Source: Planctomycetota bacterium (GTDB lineage Bacteria; Planctomycetota; PLA2; JAEUHO01). Taken from it: a stretch of 64,000 bases of DNA. Shown here in pieces: positions 26,972-37,714 of the stretch. The notes below the pieces were generated by a model. The model saw nothing but the letters and a program-made list of their open reading frames with translations. It searched no databases and was not told the origin of the DNA. The position numbers and the translations under genes are program-made. Each line of letters opens with the position of its first letter. The stretch's first letter is position 1. The stretch lies in assembly GCA_029259775.1 (NCBI GenBank), contig JAJDEN010000005.1, positions 62,001 to 126,000 of the forward strand, given 5' to 3'.

Positions 26972-28054
26972 CTACTTCTCACCCTTGCCCGCAAGGGTCG
27001 TGCTCTCGGAGTCGCGTGCGAGTTCCTCGCCTGCCTCCGTCTGCACGGACGCTACGGCCTGGACGAAGGCCGTCGGAGGCACGCTGATGACCTTGGCCAG
27101 GATGTACATCTTCACCTCCTGGTCGAGGCTGAGCTTGAACACCGTGCTCGTGGCCTCGCGGCCCGCACCTTCGATGGAGAGACCGGCGCCCTGGCCCGAG
27201 ATGAACTCGAGCTGCTCGGGCAGCTGGAACTTCACACGGATCGTGGGGAAGGCCTCGCTGCCGACGTCGCTGCGGACGGTCAGGTCGTAGCGCACGACCT
27301 GGCCGATCTCGAAGACACCGGCGGGACTGCCATCGGGATCGCTGTCAACCATCTCGACCTCGAGGGCCGGGAGCGTCTCGACGGGGACCTCGCACGTGTC
27401 GTTGCGGCGCCAGACCCAGCGGCCGGGCTGCACACAGACGGTCTCCCGGACCATCTTGTACTCGGCGGGCACACACTCCTTGCGGCACGTGGCGGGGTGA
27501 ATGAGGAAGCGTTCCTCGAGCATCTTGTACTTGGCGGGCGTGTACTCCACGCGCTTCGTAGGCGGCTGCAGGCAGACGGCCTTGCAGTCCTCGCGCCACA
27601 CCGGCGGGCAGTCCTGCTTGACCCAACACTCCTTGCAGGGGTCGTCGGAGCACTTGACGCGCTTGTAGGTGGACCGTGCGGGGCGGACGAGCACGTCCTC
27701 CTTCTTCGTGGTCCAGACACCGGGCTTCGTCACCTCGTTGAGCTTGGCCGGCGCGATGCAGACCAGCTTGGGACGGGTGCCGTACTCGGCCGGGATCTTG
27801 ATCGTCCGCGTGCCGGCCGGACGTGCCAGGACCCGCTTCTCGACCTCCTTGGAGACCGGCGGCTGCCAGACGCGGCACCAGGCCTCACCCGCCTTGGCTT
27901 CCGGCGGGCGATCGCCAGCGGGCTCAGGGGCATCCACCGTAGCGCACGGGGGCTCGCAAGAGGGCGCGCCGGCACCTCCAGTGCGAACGCCGGAGCAACC
28001 GACGAGCAGCGCAATCGACAGGCACAGGGCGATCCAGGGCGTGAATCGGGGCAT
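26972..28054 (-). CDS. Cys-rich repeat lipoprotein with 'PAxYxx..VxVxPA' ~22-aa repeats and C-terminal DUF11/OmcB-like beta domain
   Basis: Lipobox LLVGC; repeats PAEYGTRPKLVCIAPAKLNEVTK, PAKYKMLEERFLIHPATCRKECV, PAEYKMVRETVCVQPGRWVWRRND; C-terminus GVFEIGQVVRYDLTVRSDVGSEAFPTIRVKFQLPEQLEFISG. Confidence 0.85.
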   Translation of the reverse strand: MPRFTPWIALCLSIALLVGCSGVRTGGAGAPSCEPPCATVDAPEPAGDRPPEAKAGEAWCRVWQPPVSKEVEKRVLARPAGTRTIKIPAEYGTRPKLVCIAPAKLNEVTKPGVWTTKKEDVLVRPARSTYKRVKCSDDPCKECWVKQDCPPVWREDCKAVCLQPPTKRVEYTPAKYKMLEERFLIHPATCRKECVPAEYKMVRETVCVQPGRWVWRRNDTCEVPVETLPALEVEMVDSDPDGSPAGVFEIGQVVRYDLTVRSDVGSEAFPTIRVKFQLPEQLEFISGQGAGLSIEGAGREATSTVFKLSLDQEVKMYILAKVISVPPTAFVQAVASVQTEAGEELARDSESTTLAGKGEK

Positions 28055-28282
28055 CGGGCAGTCCTCCCAGAACTGGACGGAAGACTACCACCCTGCCGTC
28101 GGAACCGACTAGCGCGAAAGGGGTTCCGTGAACACGAGCCGAGCCGGAATTCGCGCGTCCGTTTCGACGCGGGCCCGTCCGTCATCACCCTGTCATGGTG
28201 CGTCTTCGGAGCGCATCCGTCGGGCCGCCTCCGTGGGAGGAGAGCTCCCGCGCCCCGAGGCGCGAGCCGCGCCGTCGGCGGG

Positions 28283-29218
28283 CTAGTCGCCCTTCTTGGA
28301 CGAGCCGGCGCGCGACTCGAAGTTCTGTGCGAGCGTCTTGGCGCGTGCCTCCAGGGACGTGCCCTTGAAGGCGGCGAGGATGCCGCGGTACTCCTGACGT
28401 GCCGCCGCCGTCTTGCCCTGCTTGTGCCAGGCCTCGGCGCGATCGACGCGATTCTGAAGCTTCCGACCAGCGATCGTGGTCAGGCGCGTGATGGCGCTGC
28501 GGACATCGGCCGTCACGCCGGGGGTGCGCCCCACGGCCTCGGCGGCGCGCAGGGCCGTGCCGTAGTCGCGGCCGTAGACCGCGTCGCGGGCCTTCTTCAA
28601 GACCGCCGGGACGGGCCCGAGTTCCGCGAGACGCCAGCGCCCCAGCTCCGTCTCGATGACACGGTTCGAAAGCGAGTTGCTCGCCTTGACCCGACCGTCG
28701 ATGCCGATGACGTAGAAACCGGGCCGGCGTCCCCCGCCGTAGCGGTTGGCCAGGGCCCCGGTCGGATCTCGCGCGACAGGGAAGGTCCAGCCGTGCTTGG
28801 CCATGGAAGGTGTCACTTCCTTCAGCGGAAAGCGGTGGCAGATGGAGATGACCTGCAGGCCGGACTGGCTCGAGCGCTCGTGCAGGGCCTGCAGCTTCGG
28901 CAGCTCACGCTTGCAGTGCGGGCAGTCCCGGAGCCAGAACGCCAAGACGACGACGCTCTTGTTGCGCAGCGAGGAGAGCTTCGTCCCCGCCTTGAGGCCG
29001 AGGGCCGTCTCGGCGAACACGAGGTCGGGCGCGACGCGGCCATTGAGGTCACGCCAGCTCTTGGCAGCTTCGGCGTCGCCCGCTCGCCCGGCAGGCGCTA
29101 CAAGCAGGGCTCCTACCGCCAGCAGCGCGACGAGCGCGGCGCGCGCCCAGGCTCGGGAGGCGCGACGGCGGCCCCTCGGTGTGGGCACGATCGGGGTGGA
29201 CACGATCGGGGTGGGCAT
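28283..29218 (-). CDS. Thioredoxin-fold (AhpC/TSA, TlpA-like) secreted protein with CPHC active-site motif
   Basis: VVVLAFWLRDCPHCKRELPKLQAL, ICHRFPL, GRRPGFYVIGIDGRV; N-terminal hydrophobic segment; helical C-terminal region. Confidence 0.82.
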   Translation of the reverse strand: MPTPIVSTPIVPTPRGRRRASRAWARAALVALLAVGALLVAPAGRAGDAEAAKSWRDLNGRVAPDLVFAETALGLKAGTKLSSLRNKSVVVLAFWLRDCPHCKRELPKLQALHERSSQSGLQVISICHRFPLKEVTPSMAKHGWTFPVARDPTGALANRYGGGRRPGFYVIGIDGRVKASNSLSNRVIETELGRWRLAELGPVPAVLKKARDAVYGRDYGTALRAAEAVGRTPGVTADVRSAITRLTTIAGRKLQNRVDRAEAWHKQGKTAAARQEYRGILAAFKGTSLEARAKTLAQNFESRAGSSKKGD

Positions 29219-29287
29219 GGGTGGCCTCCTGCGTGCGCTCCGGAGCTACACCTTTCACGGTTGAGGGGCACATTGTAGAGGGCCGGG

Positions 29288-30784
29288 TCACCCTTCCGTC
29301 GGCTTCCTCGCGGCTTCCGACTGCCGACCTCGGCCGACCTGGACGTAGCGGAGCACGTGCGGGTGCAGCAGGGCGAAGATCGTGACGATCTCGAGCCGTC
29401 CCAACCACATGCTGAGGGTCAGCAGGATCTTCCCGACGGGGCTGAAGAAGGCATAGCTGCCCATCGGCCCGGCGTCGCCGAAGGCGGGCCCCACGTTGCC
29501 GAAACAGGCCAGACTCGCAGACATGCCCGTCGTGAAGTCCAGTCCGGGCTCCACGATCACCAGGAGCAGCCCCAGCACGACGTACCCCACGAGGTAGAGG
29601 ATCACCAGCGTGACGACGGACCGGATGACGGGAGCGCTGATCTTGCGCGTGCGGTAGCGCAGCGGAATCACCGCATTGGGATGCAGCACCTGGGTCATCT
29701 CGCGCCGCAGGAACTTCAGGCAGAGGATGTAGCGGATGACCTTGGGCCCCCCGCAGGCCGAGCCGGCGCAGCCCCCCACCAGCATCACGATCACGAGGAT
29801 CGCCTTCATGGCGTAGGACCACTCCACTTCGAAGTCCACGCTGGCATAGCCGGTCGACGACGTGAGGCTGCTCACCTGGAACGAGCCCGCCCGCAGATTG
29901 TCGATGTTGGTCACGCCCCCGGGGAGCATGAAGGCCAGGGCGAGCGCGGCAACGGCCATGACGCCGAGGTAGACGAGGAACTCCCCGTCGCGGAAGAACG
30001 CCGTGAGACGCCCCGAGAAGAAGCGCCACTGCAGCGGGAAGCTGGTCCCCGAGAGCACCATGAAGATGACGAAGATCCACTCCGCACGCGGGTTGGCGAA
30101 CCCCTCGATGGAGCGCGGGTTCGGCGAGAAGCCGCCCGCGGACATGGTCGTCAGTGCGTGCACGATGCCGTCGAAGAGGCCGAAGCCCGTTGTCATCAAC
30201 AGCGCGGCCAGCAGGGCCGTGAGGCCGATGTAGAGCACCCAGAGCTTGCGGGCGGCGCCGCGGATCTGGGGACTGATGCCCTCGCCGGTGCTGATCGAGG
30301 CCTCGGCAAAGAAGAGCTGTCGTCCGGCAATCCCCAGGCGGGGCAGGATGACGACGAACAGCGCGATGACGCCCAGCCCCCCAAACCATTGCGTCATGGA
30401 GCGCCATAGGAAGAACGCATCGTCGTAGGCCGAGAAGTCCGTGAGGATCGTCGCGCCCGTGGTCGTCAGGCCCGAGATCGACTCGAAGATGGCGTCGATG
30501 GGCGAGAGTCCCGCGAACACATAGGGAATCGCGCTGAAGAGCCCGACGACGAGCCACGTACCCGCGACGATCGCCATCGCCTCCGCGCGCCAGAGCACCG
30601 GCGCACGCTTGAACCAGCGGGAGAAGAACCAGCCCACGCCGGCACTCGCGGCCAGGGCCACGGCGAAGTGGCCTGCGACGTTGTAGTTCCCCTGGAAGAA
30701 CGCCAGCCCGAGAGGCGGCAGGAAGGCCGGCGCGAACAGGAGGAGCAGGTGGCCGATGACGCCGAAGACGAGGGAGAGGCGCAC
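29288..30784 (-). CDS. trkH: TrkH family potassium uptake protein
   Basis: 498 aa; GLTTTGATILTDF, TALTTMSAGGFSPNPRSI, SLTSSTGYASVDFEVEW, FGNVGPAFG. GTG start directly after the TrkA stop. Confidence 0.92.
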   Translation of the reverse strand: MRLSLVFGVIGHLLLLFAPAFLPPLGLAFFQGNYNVAGHFAVALAASAGVGWFFSRWFKRAPVLWRAEAMAIVAGTWLVVGLFSAIPYVFAGLSPIDAIFESISGLTTTGATILTDFSAYDDAFFLWRSMTQWFGGLGVIALFVVILPRLGIAGRQLFFAEASISTGEGISPQIRGAARKLWVLYIGLTALLAALLMTTGFGLFDGIVHALTTMSAGGFSPNPRSIEGFANPRAEWIFVIFMVLSGTSFPLQWRFFSGRLTAFFRDGEFLVYLGVMAVAALALAFMLPGGVTNIDNLRAGSFQVSSLTSSTGYASVDFEVEWSYAMKAILVIVMLVGGCAGSACGGPKVIRYILCLKFLRREMTQVLHPNAVIPLRYRTRKISAPVIRSVVTLVILYLVGYVVLGLLLVIVEPGLDFTTGMSASLACFGNVGPAFGDAGPMGSYAFFSPVGKILLTLSMWLGRLEIVTIFALLHPHVLRYVQVGRGRQSEAARKPTEG

Positions 30785-32158
30785 TTACGCGGGCTCCGGA
30801 TCCGCCAGCGTGCGCAGACGGTTGAGGAAGAAGTCACGCACGTCTGCTTCCTGATCACGCATGCAGAAGACCAGCAGGTGATCGCCCGCCTCCACGGCAT
30901 CGCTTCCGCGCGGGATGATGACGTTCCCCTCGCGCAGGATGGCGCCGATGATGCCGAAGAGACCGGACTTCATGTTCAGGATCGGCACGCGCGGATGGTC
31001 GTCGGGCAGCACCAACTCGATGACCTCGGCGTCGCCGTGCTCCAACTCGGCCAGAAGCTCCGCCTTCGCGACGTCGACCATGCGCAGCACGGATCGCACC
31101 GCGGCGCCGCGCGCAGAGCGCACCACATCGATCCCTACCTTCTCGAAGAGACGCTCGTTCGACAGGTGATCGGCCCGCGTCACGATGCGATCCACACCCA
31201 GGCTCTTGGCGAGCAGGGATACGAGCAGGTTCTTCTCGTCGTTGCTCGTGACCGCGATGAGTACAGGCGACTCGCCGACGCGTTCCGACTCGAGCAAGTC
31301 GAGATCGCCGCCGTCCCCGTGCAGGACGAGGCCCTTCAAGTCGGGCGCGATCTCCTCCGCGCGCTTGCGGTTCGACTCGATGAGTTTCACGTTCCAGCCT
31401 GCGTCCTCGAGTCCACGCGCCACGGCGAAACCGACGGTGCCCCCACCGACGACCGTCGCGTCGTGCGGATGCCGGGCCGTCGGGCGGACGCGCAGGTGGC
31501 GCGCGAGCAGCCGATTGATGCCCGCCAAGCTGCCCATGCTCGTGATCTTGTCACCCGGCTGGAAGTGCGTCTCGCCGTTGGGGACGAACACCTCCTCGCC
31601 GCGCCGCGCCATGACGAGGACGACGCCGGGGGGTACCCCGACCTCCTTGAGCGGCCCCCTCGACAGCGGAGCCCCCTCTTCCACCGCGTAGCGCAGTAGA
31701 TGCACGCGTCCGCCGGCGAAGACCTGCACGTCCAGCGCGCCCTCCACGGCGACGATGCGCAGGATCTCCGTGGCCAGTTGCTTCGACGGGCGCACGACGT
31801 CGTCGATCCCAAGGCTCTGGGCCATGGCCGCGGCATCTTCGCCGGGCAGCTGCAGGTCCGGTCGGCTGAGGAAGCAGACGCTGCGCGCCGCGCCCAGGCG
31901 CTTGGCGCTGACGCAGGCCACGAGGTTGCGCTCATCGACCGGGGAACACCCGACGAAGATGTCCGCTTCGGCGGCCTTCGCCTGGCGCAGCACGGGCGGG
32001 GACGTCACGGAGCCGATCACACGCTCGGCGTCCATACGCGCCAAGCGGTTCTCGTCGGCCGCTGATTCCGGGCACACGAGGATCACCTCGTGGTCCAGCA
32101 TGAGGGCTTCGACAAGTCGGAACGCGACCTCGTCTTCGCCGCCGATCAGGATGCGCAT
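30785..32158 (-). CDS. trkA: Trk system potassium transporter TrkA
   Basis: 457 aa; two RCK-type modules (MRILIGGEDEVAFRLVEALMLDHEVILV; DATVVGGGTVGFAVARGLEDAGWNVKLIESNRKRAEEIA). Confidence 0.92.
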   Translation of the reverse strand: MRILIGGEDEVAFRLVEALMLDHEVILVCPESAADENRLARMDAERVIGSVTSPPVLRQAKAAEADIFVGCSPVDERNLVACVSAKRLGAARSVCFLSRPDLQLPGEDAAAMAQSLGIDDVVRPSKQLATEILRIVAVEGALDVQVFAGGRVHLLRYAVEEGAPLSRGPLKEVGVPPGVVLVMARRGEEVFVPNGETHFQPGDKITSMGSLAGINRLLARHLRVRPTARHPHDATVVGGGTVGFAVARGLEDAGWNVKLIESNRKRAEEIAPDLKGLVLHGDGGDLDLLESERVGESPVLIAVTSNDEKNLLVSLLAKSLGVDRIVTRADHLSNERLFEKVGIDVVRSARGAAVRSVLRMVDVAKAELLAELEHGDAEVIELVLPDDHPRVPILNMKSGLFGIIGAILREGNVIIPRGSDAVEAGDHLLVFCMRDQEADVRDFFLNRLRTLADPEPA

Positions 32159-32218
32159 GCGCCCCCACTCCTACGGAATGGCGCGCATTCTACCCGCCTC
32201 CACCAGCTGGTCCCCGCC

Positions 32219-33043
32219 CTACCTGGGCCGAGACCCGCCTGCGCGACGTTCCTCGGCGAGGACGCGCGGTATGAGCCGTGCGATGCGCTCCGCGCGCGCC
32301 TGCGGCTCGGGGTGGGTTGAGAGCATCTCAGGCTCACGAGCCCCCCCGCGTGCAGCCATGCGTTCCCAGAGTCGGACCGCCTCGTGCGGGTTGAAGCCGG
32401 CCCGCACCATCAGCCGGAGACCGATGGCATCCGCTTCGTCTTCGTGCAGCCGAGAGTAGGGCAGCAGGATGCCAACTTCTGTTCCGAGGCCCAGCGCAGC
32501 CATGGCCGGTCCCTGGATGCCCGGCTCGGCCCCCCCGAGCGCCCGGCCGATCACCTCAAGCGCGCCTTGCGTCACCATCTGCTGGCTCACACGTTCCGCG
32601 CCGTGACGGGCCATGGCGTGCGCGATCTCGTGCCCCATGACGGCCGCCAAGCCGTGCTCGTTCTGCGTGACCTTGAGAATGCCTGTGTAGATGGCGATCT
32701 TGCCCCCGGGGAGGCAGAAGGCGTTCAGGGTGTCGTCGTCGTGAACGAGCTTGAACTCCCAGGTGTAGGTCTTGCCGGACACCGCCGCCAGCCGGCGTCC
32801 GACGCGCTCGATCATCTGGGCCCGGGCCGTACCGGTCTCGATCGGCTTGCCCTTGAGGATCGCACCGTAGGCCTGGAGGCCCATGCGCAGTTCGTCGCTC
32901 TCGCTGATCAAGCGCAGCTGGGAGCGCTCGCTGTACGGCACGCTCCCACAGCCGATGGCCACGGCGAACGTGGCGGCGGCCACCAGACCCGCCAGCCCCG
33001 AGACGACGCGGCGGGCACGCCGGCTCCTGCAGCACGCGGCCAT
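32219..33043 (-). CDS. M48 family metalloprotease (periplasmic/lipoprotein)
   Basis: GHEIAHAMARHGAERVSQQM (HExxH), SRLHEDEADAIGLRLMVRAGF, LSTHPEPQARAERI. Confidence 0.92.
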   Translation of the reverse strand: MAACCRSRRARRVVSGLAGLVAAATFAVAIGCGSVPYSERSQLRLISESDELRMGLQAYGAILKGKPIETGTARAQMIERVGRRLAAVSGKTYTWEFKLVHDDDTLNAFCLPGGKIAIYTGILKVTQNEHGLAAVMGHEIAHAMARHGAERVSQQMVTQGALEVIGRALGGAEPGIQGPAMAALGLGTEVGILLPYSRLHEDEADAIGLRLMVRAGFNPHEAVRLWERMAARGGAREPEMLSTHPEPQARAERIARLIPRVLAEERRAGGSRPR

Positions 33044-33055
33044 CGCTGGACGTCC

Positions 33056-35125
33056 CTAGCCGGCCTGCTCGGCCGCCGCCAAGCAGCCGCGCGCGACGGC
33101 CGCAACGTTGTCGGCGGTGAAGCCGAACTTCACCATCAGGTCGCCTGCCGGGGCCGACGCGCCGAAGCGGTCCATGGTCACGAGGGCGCCGTTCGGCCCG
33201 ACCCAGCGGTGCCAGCCCAGGGAACAGCCCGCCTCGATGCCGACGCGGACGTCACACCCACCGAACACGGCCTCGCGTTCCGCGGCGTCACGCGCCTCGA
33301 AGCGCTCCCAGCAGGGCATCGAGACCACGCGCGCAGCCACGCCCTCATTCTGGAGGAGGTCGGCGGCACCCATCGCGGCGGCGACTTCGCTGCCGGTGGC
33401 GAGCAGGCATACGTCCGGGTGGACGCCGCCTTCGCGAAGGACGTAGGCGCCGTCGGTGGTCCCGGACGCGTCGCCGAACGTGCCGCGATCGAAGACCGGG
33501 ACGCCCTGCCGCGTCAGGCAGAGAGCTGTGGGTCCATTCGACAAGAGCGCGGCACGCCACGCCTCGGCCGTCTCGGCCGCGTCGGCCGGGCGGAAGACCT
33601 GCAGCCCCGGGATCGACCGGAGCGCCGCAAGGTGCTCGACGGGCTGATGCGTGGGCCCGTCCTCGCCGACGCCGATCGAATCGTGTGTGAACACGTAGAT
33701 CACCGGGATCTGCATCAACGCGGCGAGGCGGATGCTCGGTCGCATGTAGTCGCTGAAGACCAGGAAGGTCCCGCAGTAGGGTCGCAGGCCGCCGTGCAGC
33801 GCCATGCCGTTGCAGATCGCGCCCATGCCATGCTCGCGCACGCCGAAGTGGATCGTGCGTCCGCTGTAGTCATCTCTCGTGACGTTTGCGGAGCCGGGCA
33901 GCGTCGTGTTGTTCGAGCCCGCGAGGTCCGCCGAGCCTCCGATAAGCTGCGGCACGAGATCGCCGAGGCCCGCCAGGACCTTGCCCGATGCCTTGCGCGT
34001 CGCCATGGACGTGCCGGCTTCAAACGCCGGAAGACCCGCCTCCCAGCCCTCGGGCAGGATGCCGCACATGCTGTTCTCGAACGCCAGGACCGCGTCCGGC
34101 TGACTGGCCCTCAGGGCCTCGATCGAAGCCTCCCAGGCCGCCCGGGCGTCGCCGCCACGGCGCCCCGCAGCCGCCATGTGCTCGCGAACGTCCGCCGGAA
34201 TCTCGAAGGTCGCGTCTTCAGGCCAGCCGAGGGCCTTCTTGGTGAGTCGGACCTCGGCGCCGTCGATCGCACCATGGGCGGCCGAGGTGTCCTGCTTGTT
34301 CGGACTGCCGTCGCCGATGTGCGTGCGACAGCAAACGAGGGTCGGTTTGCTCCTCTCGGCACGCGCCGTCTCAGCCGCCGTCACGTAGGCGTCGATGCCT
34401 TCGGATACGTCCACGTGCAGCACGTTCCAGCCGTAGCTGGCGAAACGCTGCGCGACGTCCTCGCTGAACGAGATATCCGTCGTGCCGTCGATCGTGATGC
34501 GGTTGTCGTCCCAAAACACGCAGAGCTTGTTGAGTCCCAGGTGGCCCGCAAGGCTCGCGGCCTCCGAGGCGACGCCCTCCATGAGGTCGCCGTCACTGGC
34601 CATGACCCAGGTGCGATGATCGACGAGCGTGCACGCATCGCTGTCCTGGAAGGAGTTGTGGCGAGCCGCGAGCAGACGCTCGGCGAGCGCCATGCCGACG
34701 CCATTGCCGACACCCTGGCCCAGCGGTCCGGTGGTGGTCTCGACGCCGGGCACCTCGCCGTACTCGGGATGGCCCGCCGCAGGGCTTCCGAGTTGACGGA
34801 AGTTGCGGATGTCGTCGAGCGCGAGGTCGTAGCCCGTGAGATGCAGCATCGCGTACTGCAACATCGAGGCGTGGCCGCACGAGAGAACGAAGCGATCGCG
34901 ATCCGCCCACGTGGGAGCAGCGCTGTCGTACTTCATGACCCGCGTCCACAGCGCGTACGCCAGCGGCGCGAGGCCCATCGGCGTCCCGGTGTGACCCGAG
35001 TTGGCCGCCTCGACCGCGTCCATCGCCAACATCTTGACGGTGTTCACTGTGCGTCGCGCGAGATCTGCCCCGTCCTCCGTCACATCGCCTCCTGCCGTGG
35101 TGGGCTTCGAGATCGCTTCCGTCAT
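33056..35125 (-). CDS. tkt: Transketolase
   Basis: 689 aa; NSGHTGTPMGLAPLAYALWTRVMKYD, SCGHASMLQYAMLHLTGYDL, GPLGQGVGNGVGMALAERLL, DGDLMEGVASEAASLAGHLGL, THDSIGVGEDGPTHQPVEHLAALR. Confidence 0.97.
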   Translation of the reverse strand: MTEAISKPTTAGGDVTEDGADLARRTVNTVKMLAMDAVEAANSGHTGTPMGLAPLAYALWTRVMKYDSAAPTWADRDRFVLSCGHASMLQYAMLHLTGYDLALDDIRNFRQLGSPAAGHPEYGEVPGVETTTGPLGQGVGNGVGMALAERLLAARHNSFQDSDACTLVDHRTWVMASDGDLMEGVASEAASLAGHLGLNKLCVFWDDNRITIDGTTDISFSEDVAQRFASYGWNVLHVDVSEGIDAYVTAAETARAERSKPTLVCCRTHIGDGSPNKQDTSAAHGAIDGAEVRLTKKALGWPEDATFEIPADVREHMAAAGRRGGDARAAWEASIEALRASQPDAVLAFENSMCGILPEGWEAGLPAFEAGTSMATRKASGKVLAGLGDLVPQLIGGSADLAGSNNTTLPGSANVTRDDYSGRTIHFGVREHGMGAICNGMALHGGLRPYCGTFLVFSDYMRPSIRLAALMQIPVIYVFTHDSIGVGEDGPTHQPVEHLAALRSIPGLQVFRPADAAETAEAWRAALLSNGPTALCLTRQGVPVFDRGTFGDASGTTDGAYVLREGGVHPDVCLLATGSEVAAAMGAADLLQNEGVAARVVSMPCWERFEARDAAEREAVFGGCDVRVGIEAGCSLGWHRWVGPNGALVTMDRFGASAPAGDLMVKFGFTADNVAAVARGCLAAAEQAG

Positions 35126-35212
35126 GCCTGCCGCTCCCTCGGGCCAGAGGGGCCCGTCCGGCGGGATTCTAGCCGGGGCGTCCCACGGCCTCCGCGCCCC
35201 GTCCGAGACGGT

Positions 35213-36628
35213 TCAGCGACCGTCCTTCGGCGCGCCTGCTCCGCCCGTCACAGGAGGCATCATCGGGATGAAGGGCTTGCGCGTCGATCGCTTCAGGAAG
35301 AGCAGCGCGAAGCACGTCTGCGTGATCACCGACTCCGTGGCGTCCACGGGGCGCTCGGTGTCGTCCGGCTCCTTCCAGCCGCCCCCCTTCTCCTGGGCGC
35401 CCAGGAGATGCTCGCCGCCCTCGCGGTACCAGTCATGGCGTCCGATCCAACGCGTCCCGACCTTCAAGCCGGCACGTTCCAGGCCGTAGAGGAAGTAGTA
35501 GTGCCACATCGAGGCGCCGCCAGGCGTCGGGTTCTCCGCCACAGACCAGTTCTCGGAGAGCCACGCGAGGCCTCCGAGCAGACCGCGGTCGATGCGCCCC
35601 CTCGTTTTCGCGTCGAGCTTCTTCAAGATCCAGAGGTGCTCCTTGCACATGGCCAAACAGGTCACCCCGGCAGCCGTCATCGACCCCGTGGGCAACTCGG
35701 TCTCGCCCGGGAGGTACGTCCAGCCGCGCGCGAGCGTCTGCCCAACCTCGGTGAAGCGCGGCGGCTTCTCGATCCCGGGCTCCCAGGCCTCGTTCTCCAT
35801 CCAGATGGGCGTGTCGAGGCCGTCCTTCTCCTGCTGGGCCAGGACGTAGTCCGCGGCCTTCTGCCACGTCGTCGCGGGAGCGCGGATACCGCACCGCGCC
35901 GCCGCATCGAGCGCGAGCAGTGCGTATTGGGTGTTGCTGAGGTCGGTGTCGCCGTCGGGCGCCCCCAGCGGATTGCCCGGGTAGCGCCAGCCGCCCGACG
36001 TCACCTGGTTCTTGATGATGAACTTCACCATCTCCTCGATCCACTTGCGGATCGACGCCGGGTACTTGCACTTGAGCGGCTTCGGCGGCGTGACGTTGCC
36101 GTAGCGATCCTTCTTGGCCACCTGCTCCTTCTCGGCGCCAGGGTTGTAGAGCGCATCCAGCGCCATGACGAGCGTCGCGGCCACGTAGATGGTCAGCCTG
36201 CCTTTGCCCTTGAGGTCCAGGCCTCCCTTGCCCGAATAGTGCGAGCGGCAGAAGTTGATGGCCTTGGTGACACCCTTGTCCTTCGCGGTCTTGCCGCAGT
36301 GCGCCAACGTCAGGACCACCAGCGCGTTGACGCCCGGCTCCATGATGTTGTAGGTGTTCTTCGGCAGGTCCTCGCTGAAGCCGGGGAAGCTGCCGTCCTT
36401 GCGCTGCTGCTTCGCGAGCCACACCCCGCCGCGCTCGATGGCCTTGTTCACCCGGTCATCGAAGTCGGCCTTCGCCGCGGCCATCTTGCGTTTCGCGGCC
36501 TCGATCCTGGCCTTGCGCTCCGCCGGTTCGAGCTTCTTGCCCTCGTCCGCTTGCGCGGGCGTCAGCGCGCCGCTGAGCAGCAGCAGCCACGCAACCAACA
36601 GCAGCATCCTCGGGATCGGTACGCGCAT
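35213..36628 (-). CDS. Secreted prenyltransferase/squalene-cyclase-like alpha/alpha-barrel repeat protein
   Basis: Start MRVPIPRMLLLVAWLLLLSGALTPAQA; repeats such as GGVWLAKQQRKDGSFPG, GLDTPIWMENEAW, EGGEHLLGAQEKGGGWKEPDDTERPVDATESVITQTCFALLFLKRSTRKPF; no DxDD catalytic motif seen. Confidence 0.82.
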   Translation of the reverse strand: MRVPIPRMLLLVAWLLLLSGALTPAQADEGKKLEPAERKARIEAAKRKMAAAKADFDDRVNKAIERGGVWLAKQQRKDGSFPGFSEDLPKNTYNIMEPGVNALVVLTLAHCGKTAKDKGVTKAINFCRSHYSGKGGLDLKGKGRLTIYVAATLVMALDALYNPGAEKEQVAKKDRYGNVTPPKPLKCKYPASIRKWIEEMVKFIIKNQVTSGGWRYPGNPLGAPDGDTDLSNTQYALLALDAAARCGIRAPATTWQKAADYVLAQQEKDGLDTPIWMENEAWEPGIEKPPRFTEVGQTLARGWTYLPGETELPTGSMTAAGVTCLAMCKEHLWILKKLDAKTRGRIDRGLLGGLAWLSENWSVAENPTPGGASMWHYYFLYGLERAGLKVGTRWIGRHDWYREGGEHLLGAQEKGGGWKEPDDTERPVDATESVITQTCFALLFLKRSTRKPFIPMMPPVTGGAGAPKDGR

Positions 36629-36740
36629 GAGCGGCCTCCACCTGCACCCTACGCGGGAGGGGCGGCGCGACTCAACGACCGAGCGCCCCGCCAGGCCGCG
36701 AGACCGGCCTGGGCCAAGGATCTTCGCGCGCCACAACGAG

Positions 36741-36775
36741 AACGGGCCCGGCTCTCCTTGGAGAGCCGGGCCCGA
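36741..36775 (-). terminator. Hairpin terminator of the repeat lipoprotein gene at 36827
   Basis: Perfect 15-bp inverted repeat CGGGCCCGGCTCTCC-TT-GGAGAGCCGGGCCCG (36743-36757/36760-36774), followed on the minus strand by TTCTCGTTG. Confidence 0.75.
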
Positions 36776-36826
36776 CGGTTGGTTCGCCTTGCGGCTGGTT
36801 CGCCTTGCAGCTACGAACGGGGCGGG

Positions 36827-37714
36827 CTACTTGCCGGCGGGCGCGTCGCCCAGGTCGTTGCCGTCCGCGCCTTCGTCAGCGTCGGGAGCCGCGTCGCCGT
36901 CATCCGGAGACTCGTCAGAGGGAGCGTCGTCAGAGGGAGCGTCGTCGCCATTCTCGGACGGCACGTCGCAGGCGTCGTTCTTGCGCCAGACCCACTTGGC
37001 GGGCGCCGTGCAGCGCTTCCTCGTGACCATCTTGTAGGTGGCCTCGACGGGCGTGCACTTCCACTCGCCCGGCTTGACCATGACCTTCTCCGTGACCGTC
37101 TTGTAGGTCGGGGGAATGGTCTCGGTGCGGCAGGTCGCGGCCTTGATCAGGACGCGGCGCTCGACATCCCGGAACTGGGCGGGAATCTCGACGAGCTTCC
37201 AGCAGTCGCCCTGCTTCTCGCCCTCCTGGAGATCACCTGACTCGCAGGGGATCTTCTTCCAGACGGTGCGGGCCGGGCACGTCTGCACGCGATCGGACTC
37301 CGTGCCGTACTCGGCGGGCGTGTTGATCTTCCTCGAGCGAGCGGGGCTGCTGCAGACCTTGCGCTCCTGCTCCTCGTAGACCGGCTCGATCCACTGACGG
37401 TTCGTCGAAGCGGGCGTCACCAAGACGCGCTCCTCGTACTCCTCGAACTGGGCGGGCACCTGGACGCGGCACCAGGCCTCACCGGCCTGGGCAGCTTCGG
37501 GCAGACCGTTCGGCCGCGGCGCGTCGGCCTTGGCGCACGGGTCGCAGGGCGAGGGTGCATCGCACGGCGACGGGGTGTCACAGGGCGAGAGATCGATATC
37601 GATGTTGCACGGGTTCAGATCGATGTTGCACGGATTGAGATCCACGCCACAGCAACCGGCCAGTGAAACGATGAGCGCCACGGCGCTCAGTGTGATGGTG
37701 ACTCGACGAGTCAT
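36827..37714 (-). CDS. Cys-rich repeat lipoprotein, paralogue of 26972..28054, with acidic C-terminal tail
   Basis: Start MTRRVTITLSAVALIVSLAGCCGVDL (lipobox LAGC); repeats PAQFRDVERRVLIKAATCRTETI, PPTYKTVTEKVMVKPGEWKCTPV, EATYKMVTRKRCTAPAKWVWRKND; tail DDAPSDDAPSDESPDDGDAAPDADEG. Confidence 0.85.
   Translation of the reverse strand: MTRRVTITLSAVALIVSLAGCCGVDLNPCNIDLNPCNIDIDLSPCDTPSPCDAPSPCDPCAKADAPRPNGLPEAAQAGEAWCRVQVPAQFEEYEERVLVTPASTNRQWIEPVYEEQERKVCSSPARSRKINTPAEYGTESDRVQTCPARTVWKKIPCESGDLQEGEKQGDCWKLVEIPAQFRDVERRVLIKAATCRTETIPPTYKTVTEKVMVKPGEWKCTPVEATYKMVTRKRCTAPAKWVWRKNDACDVPSENGDDAPSDDAPSDESPDDGDAAPDADEGADGNDLGDAPAGK

Follow-up and report, generated by a model that had tools for sequence, protein, structure and literature searches.

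Tethers of the Lpp/OprI, Pal, and OmpA types join the outer membrane to peptidoglycan. We propose the same job for the protein family described here, although its spacer is a predicted beta repeat and not a coiled coil or single domain; some of its members have OmpA domains, and some have coiled-coil N termini that weakly resemble Lpp/OprI. The YTV proteins of planctomycete cell walls are likewise secreted and built of short, Tyr/Val/Cys-rich repeats with an interruption in the middle, but their unit has 16 residues (YTVxxPVxET), whereas ours is a 23-residue PA repeat. DUF11 domains occur widely in surface proteins and bring chlamydial OmcB into the comparison: one of our two proteins ends in a borderline DUF11 match, but the other has none, nor does the repeat region itself match DUF11. 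Borrelia OspA is a lipoprotein with a single-layer beta-sheet. It resembles our proteins in its lipid anchor and in the open meander sheet predicted for them, but there is no sequence relation, and Foldseek returned no PDB match to the repeat sheet at an E value of ≤0.001. Closest of all are unnamed proteins of Marinobacter, Neptuniibacter, Acidobacteria bacterium Mor1, Saprospiraceae, and others, which have the same 23-aa repeat and the same order of parts up to a terminal WR..C. They differ in having a C-terminal PG_binding_1 domain (PF01471), in some cases with OmpA as well, a Cys content near 1.4%, and in many cases a larger number of repeats; both domains are missing from our pair, whose Cys content is more than four times as high.

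The window (the whole 64,000-nucleotide stretch analyzed, from an uncultured planctomycete) encodes this pair, P0002 and P0003, in two open frames that lie where a sequence-only reading had placed them, on the minus strand, which that reading left unstated (Table 1). It had taken them for paralogous lipoproteins, and we agree: BLASTP aligns them over 204 aa at 37% identity (E value of 1e-36), and their export signals and lipobox motifs (LLVGC in P0002 and SLAGC in P0003, read from the translations) mark both as predicted bacterial lipoproteins. A Cys/Pro linker connects the lipobox signal to a GEAWCRV entry in each. In P0002 the entry is followed by three repeats, a Cys insertion (CSDDPCKECW), three more repeats, and WVWRRNDTC; in P0003 the repeats are split three and three by the insertion CESGDLQEGEKQGDCW. 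The entry and the end motif WVWR[RK]ND[TA]C[ED]VP are common to both translations, as the earlier reading had said.

Table 1. Repeat lipoproteins, their parts, their neighbors, and further family members in the same genome (positions refer to the window unless a contig of genome G000 is named)
Feature	Position	Strand	Basis or remark
P0002, repeat lipoprotein, 360 aa, DUF11-like C-terminal domain	26972..28054	-	Open frame and translation
P0002 repeat core, about residues 55-226	27377..27892	-	Top lag 23; alignment with distant relatives
P0002 DUF11-like C-terminal domain, residues 228-360	26975..27373	-	DUF11 score, orthologues, likeness to C30 protein
P0003, repeat lipoprotein, 295 aa, acidic Asp/Pro/Ser tail ending DLGDAPAGK	36827..37714	-	Translation
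P0003 repeat core, residues 77-254, six 23-aa repeats	36953..37486	-	Lag-23 score; AlphaFold2 strands
TlpA-like redoxin with CPHC motif, directly upstream of P0002	28283..29218	-	AhpC-TSA and Redoxin above cutoff
Squalene-hopene-cyclase-like protein adjoining P0003	35213..36736	-	SQHop_cyclase_C; synteny
SdrD_B/carboxypeptidase-regulatory-like protein, 2695 aa	18435-26522	-	Adjoins P0002
Repeat-family member L006, window's own genome	G000:C12 near 268975-269784		
Repeat-family member L164	G000:C33 2397-3128	+	Very divergent

The repeat itself stands, but its period is 23 residues and not the roughly 22 first suggested. None of 1000 shuffles reaches the lag-23 self-score of P0003 (0.342; shuffle maximum, -0.084), and the score of P0002 (-0.02) lies near the top of its 1000 shuffles (99% point, -0.218; maximum, 0.000). 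Across the 80 public loci, the distance from one repeat start to the next is 23 in 647 cases and, next most often, 46 (55 cases). AlphaFold2 models of P0003 (from 39 sequences) and of an acidobacterial relative (from 30) both alternate between strands of 12 and 7 residues, with turns of two residues, usually Pro-Ala, between them, and the P0003 model has three long strands, the insertion, and three long strands, in keeping with the claim of six repeats interrupted after the third. The pLDDT is 82 to 90 in most repeat blocks of P0003 and 60 to 68 at the insertion; it is about 50 in two repeat stretches of the relative. We consider the predicted strand pattern credible and the overall shape of the models not credible, given pTM values of 0.29 (P0003) and 0.52 (the relative). 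On these models, the alternation of long and short strands would give a sheared, elongated sheet. The C-terminal helices of the relative match the peptidoglycan-binding domains of SltB3, SltB2, CtpB, and SleB by Foldseek. Matches to lysenin, aerolysin, and phage tail proteins were dismissed, as they cover long strands only, with E values of 0.001 or worse and a TM score of about 0.1.

Pfam, NCBIfam, PADLOC, and the PDB sequence set yielded no convincing match to the repeats of the window pair or its relatives; P0003 has no Pfam or NCBIfam match at all, and an Rfam search of the region gave none. The suggestion that the repeat may be undescribed thus fits its lack of a model in Pfam, NCBIfam, or the PDB sequence set. 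It is also without a description in the open-access literature searched, although such absence is weak evidence. That the repeat differs from YTV was borne out: we reject membership in that family (PF07639) because the window pair has no HMM match at E values up to 10, none of the 12 genomes of the organism's family has a match (genome G039 has 10), the profile-profile comparison gives an hhalign probability of 1.5%, and the periods differ. The repeat is new to the libraries searched; the kind of protein (envelope repeat protein, membrane-to-wall tether) is already known.

The two tails truly differ after the shared end, and the description "swapped C-termini" is fair; the DUF11 label given to the P0002 tail is borderline. 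That tail scores 20.4 bits against DUF11 (PF01345), below the cutoff of 24.6, and two of seven P0002 orthologues match at E values of ≤0.01 (best, 8.9e-7). Over 99 aa it shares 36% identity with the final domain of a lipoprotein on contig C30 (L163, 2602-5076, plus strand), itself at 22.7 bits, and this resemblance identifies the tail as a shared module. The C30 lipoprotein has several DUF11-type domains and is unlinked to the window genes. P0002 has orthologues in genomes of the organism's family, and the P0003 orthologues L007 and L008 have the same C-terminal end as P0003. With the members on C12 and C33, the window's genome has at least four members. A tree of family members has three groups (P0003 type, P0002 type, and C12 type); the DUF11-tailed paralogues form one of them (support, 99/97), and the bases of the other two are more weakly supported. 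The DUF11-like tail was gained once, in one paralogue clade.

Relatives extend well beyond the planctomycetes. One scan of 84,980 species genomes, with a composite query, returned 163 relatives, and both tblastn and alignments to the window proteins confirmed them. The best 80 of the 163 belong to Bacteroidota (mostly Saprospiraceae), Acidobacteriota, Gamma- and Deltaproteobacteria, Campylobacterota, Krumholzibacteriota, Kiritimatiellae, and Planctomycetota, and a separate plasmid search added one distant alphaproteobacterial protein, on a Methylobacterium plasmid. Among Planctomycetota, family members turned up patchily in a profile search, in 43 of 392 genomes. A phage origin was rejected; searches of phage records and IMG/VR gave no relatives. 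Column by column, the window pair aligns with acidobacterial, proteobacterial, and Bacteroidota relatives in the same order (entry, repeats, Cys insertion, repeats, end), with GEAWC/GECYA at the entry, GDCW/GEIMC at the insertion, and EWRRNxxC/EWRxxLC at the end. In the reverse direction, an acidobacterial protein matches P0003 in the window's genome (E value of 2.7e-21); in 13 planctomycete genomes, matches are confined to its repeat part and none reach its peptidoglycan-binding domain. A lipobox motif is seen in eight planctomycete relatives from the genome scan, and many relatives, including nearly all from Bacteroidota, have an ordinary signal without one. Natural lengths start at about 6 repeats and exceed 40. 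Five Saprospiraceae proteins (L119, L131, L136, L141, and L142) are giants of about 1400 to 1712 aa with some 33 to 46 repeats, and OmpA-type domains are inserted between the repeats of these giant versions. In L143, from Neptuniibacter sp. PT1, the core is seemingly part-duplicated, with an extra Cys-bearing interruption.

The C-terminal domain divides these proteins. PG_binding_1 stands at the C terminus in 50 of 52 scanned relatives from outside the Planctomycetota (50 of all 60 scanned, the ten exceptions being eight planctomycete and two Bacteroidota proteins). It is found in none of 20 planctomycete proteins: the window's two, eight close ones, and ten more distant ones that belong to other families. 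This distribution, with an order of parts shared by many phyla, speaks against the earlier suggestion that the repeat is a unit from which planctomycete or PVC cell walls are built. Cys accounts for 6.47% of the repeat core in the window's family and 1.31 to 1.42% elsewhere, a more than fourfold difference, and the window's family has Cys-rich linkers in addition. Other planctomycete members without PG_binding_1 mostly have about 1 to 3% Cys, and two have 8 to 10%. As the domain is absent and Cys is low in most of them, we treat domain loss and Cys gain as separate events that are not tightly coupled. L047, a long version from another planctomycete family (genome G301), has 10% Cys, possibly an independent enrichment.

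On balance we think it probable that P0002 and P0003 are outer-membrane-anchored envelope spacers derived from an outer membrane-peptidoglycan tether. In each predicted repeat, a strand of 12 residues leads through a two-residue turn into one of 7 residues and on to another turn (usually PA), so that successive repeats would add up to one growing antiparallel sheet. The lipid would keep the N terminus in the outer membrane, and the sheet would project as a spacer whose far end, in most bacteria, would grip peptidoglycan through PG_binding_1. In the window's planctomycete family, this grip may have given way to cysteines, acting within one chain or between chains, and to different ends, namely, the DUF11-like domain of P0002 and the acidic tail of P0003. 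The neighboring redoxin may set the thiol state, and OmcB-style disulfide cross-linking of the window proteins is possible. The shared alignment columns, the reverse match, the distribution of PG_binding_1, the Cys enrichment, and the strand pattern in both models favor this reading, as do the OmpA domains of some Saprospiraceae versions, the redoxin-P0002 neighborhood, and the single DUF11-tailed group. The ordinary signals of many relatives, the low pTM for P0003, the loose coupling of domain loss to Cys gain, and the position of the redoxin in a conserved block of unrelated genes count against it.

Three other readings share part of this evidence. The proteins could polymerize through Cys into an insoluble outer-membrane layer, a disulfide-cross-linked coat like that of chlamydial OmcB or planctomycete YTV. 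The Cys content of the core and linkers, several lipoprotein paralogues per genome, the DUF11-like tail, and the redoxin would all suit such a coat. The redoxin adjoins the P0002-type gene in the window and in six other genomes, with CPxC kept in each. It lies, however, within a conserved block of unrelated genes (P0003, SQHop-like, transketolase, [M48], TrkA, TrkH, redoxin, P0002, and the giant SdrD_B-like protein), kept whole or in pieces across genera, so this neighborhood may mean little. The YTV match is absent, and mraY in the window's genome makes peptidoglycan probable in this cell; an organism without it was rejected on this ground. With OmpA-type domains also encoded there, the comparison with peptidoglycan-less walls is weakened and an OmcB-like picture of such a wall is not required. 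We regard the coat as unlikely.

The block also contains the starting point of a quite unlikely alternative, in which the pair would be exposed at the surface, as an adhesin or matrix protein, in company with the 2695-aa SdrD_B-like protein. A giant of this kind follows the P0002-type gene in two further syntenic stretches (L153 and L157), and DUF11 domains are generally known from surface proteins, but the PG_binding_1 and OmpA domains of the relatives put the repeat on the periplasmic side. The C-terminal half of the 2695-aa protein contains long low-complexity stretches of GGSSGKSGKSG, and a plus-strand open frame of 2626 aa runs antisense to its gene. We find it quite improbable that the proteins handle metals, with Cys and Tyr rungs binding copper, iron, or the like and the redoxin serving maturation. 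Regular Cys placement in relatives such as L019 and L047 (CVCPASC and VCCKPASC) would fit, but Cys positions differ among orthologues of one paralogue, canonical relatives have few Cys, and the neighbors include only a general TolC/HlyD pair and nothing metal specific.

A bolder form of the spacer reading, which we hold to be rather doubtful, is that a widespread and undescribed family of 23-aa beta-meander repeats makes long tethers from the outer membrane to peptidoglycan and that one planctomycete lineage turned it into a peptidoglycan-independent, disulfide-stapled envelope scaffold with interchangeable ends. The repeat occurs in at least seven major bacterial groups, has no Pfam or NCBIfam entry and no structurally solved relative, and is a candidate diderm-envelope spacer whose natural length variants would allow envelope spacing to be tested. 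The planctomycete version, with its wall-binding end lost and Cys gained, offers a natural experiment on a long-debated question, the rebuilding of the envelope, and the window pair may illustrate the remodeling of a tether between outer membrane and wall.
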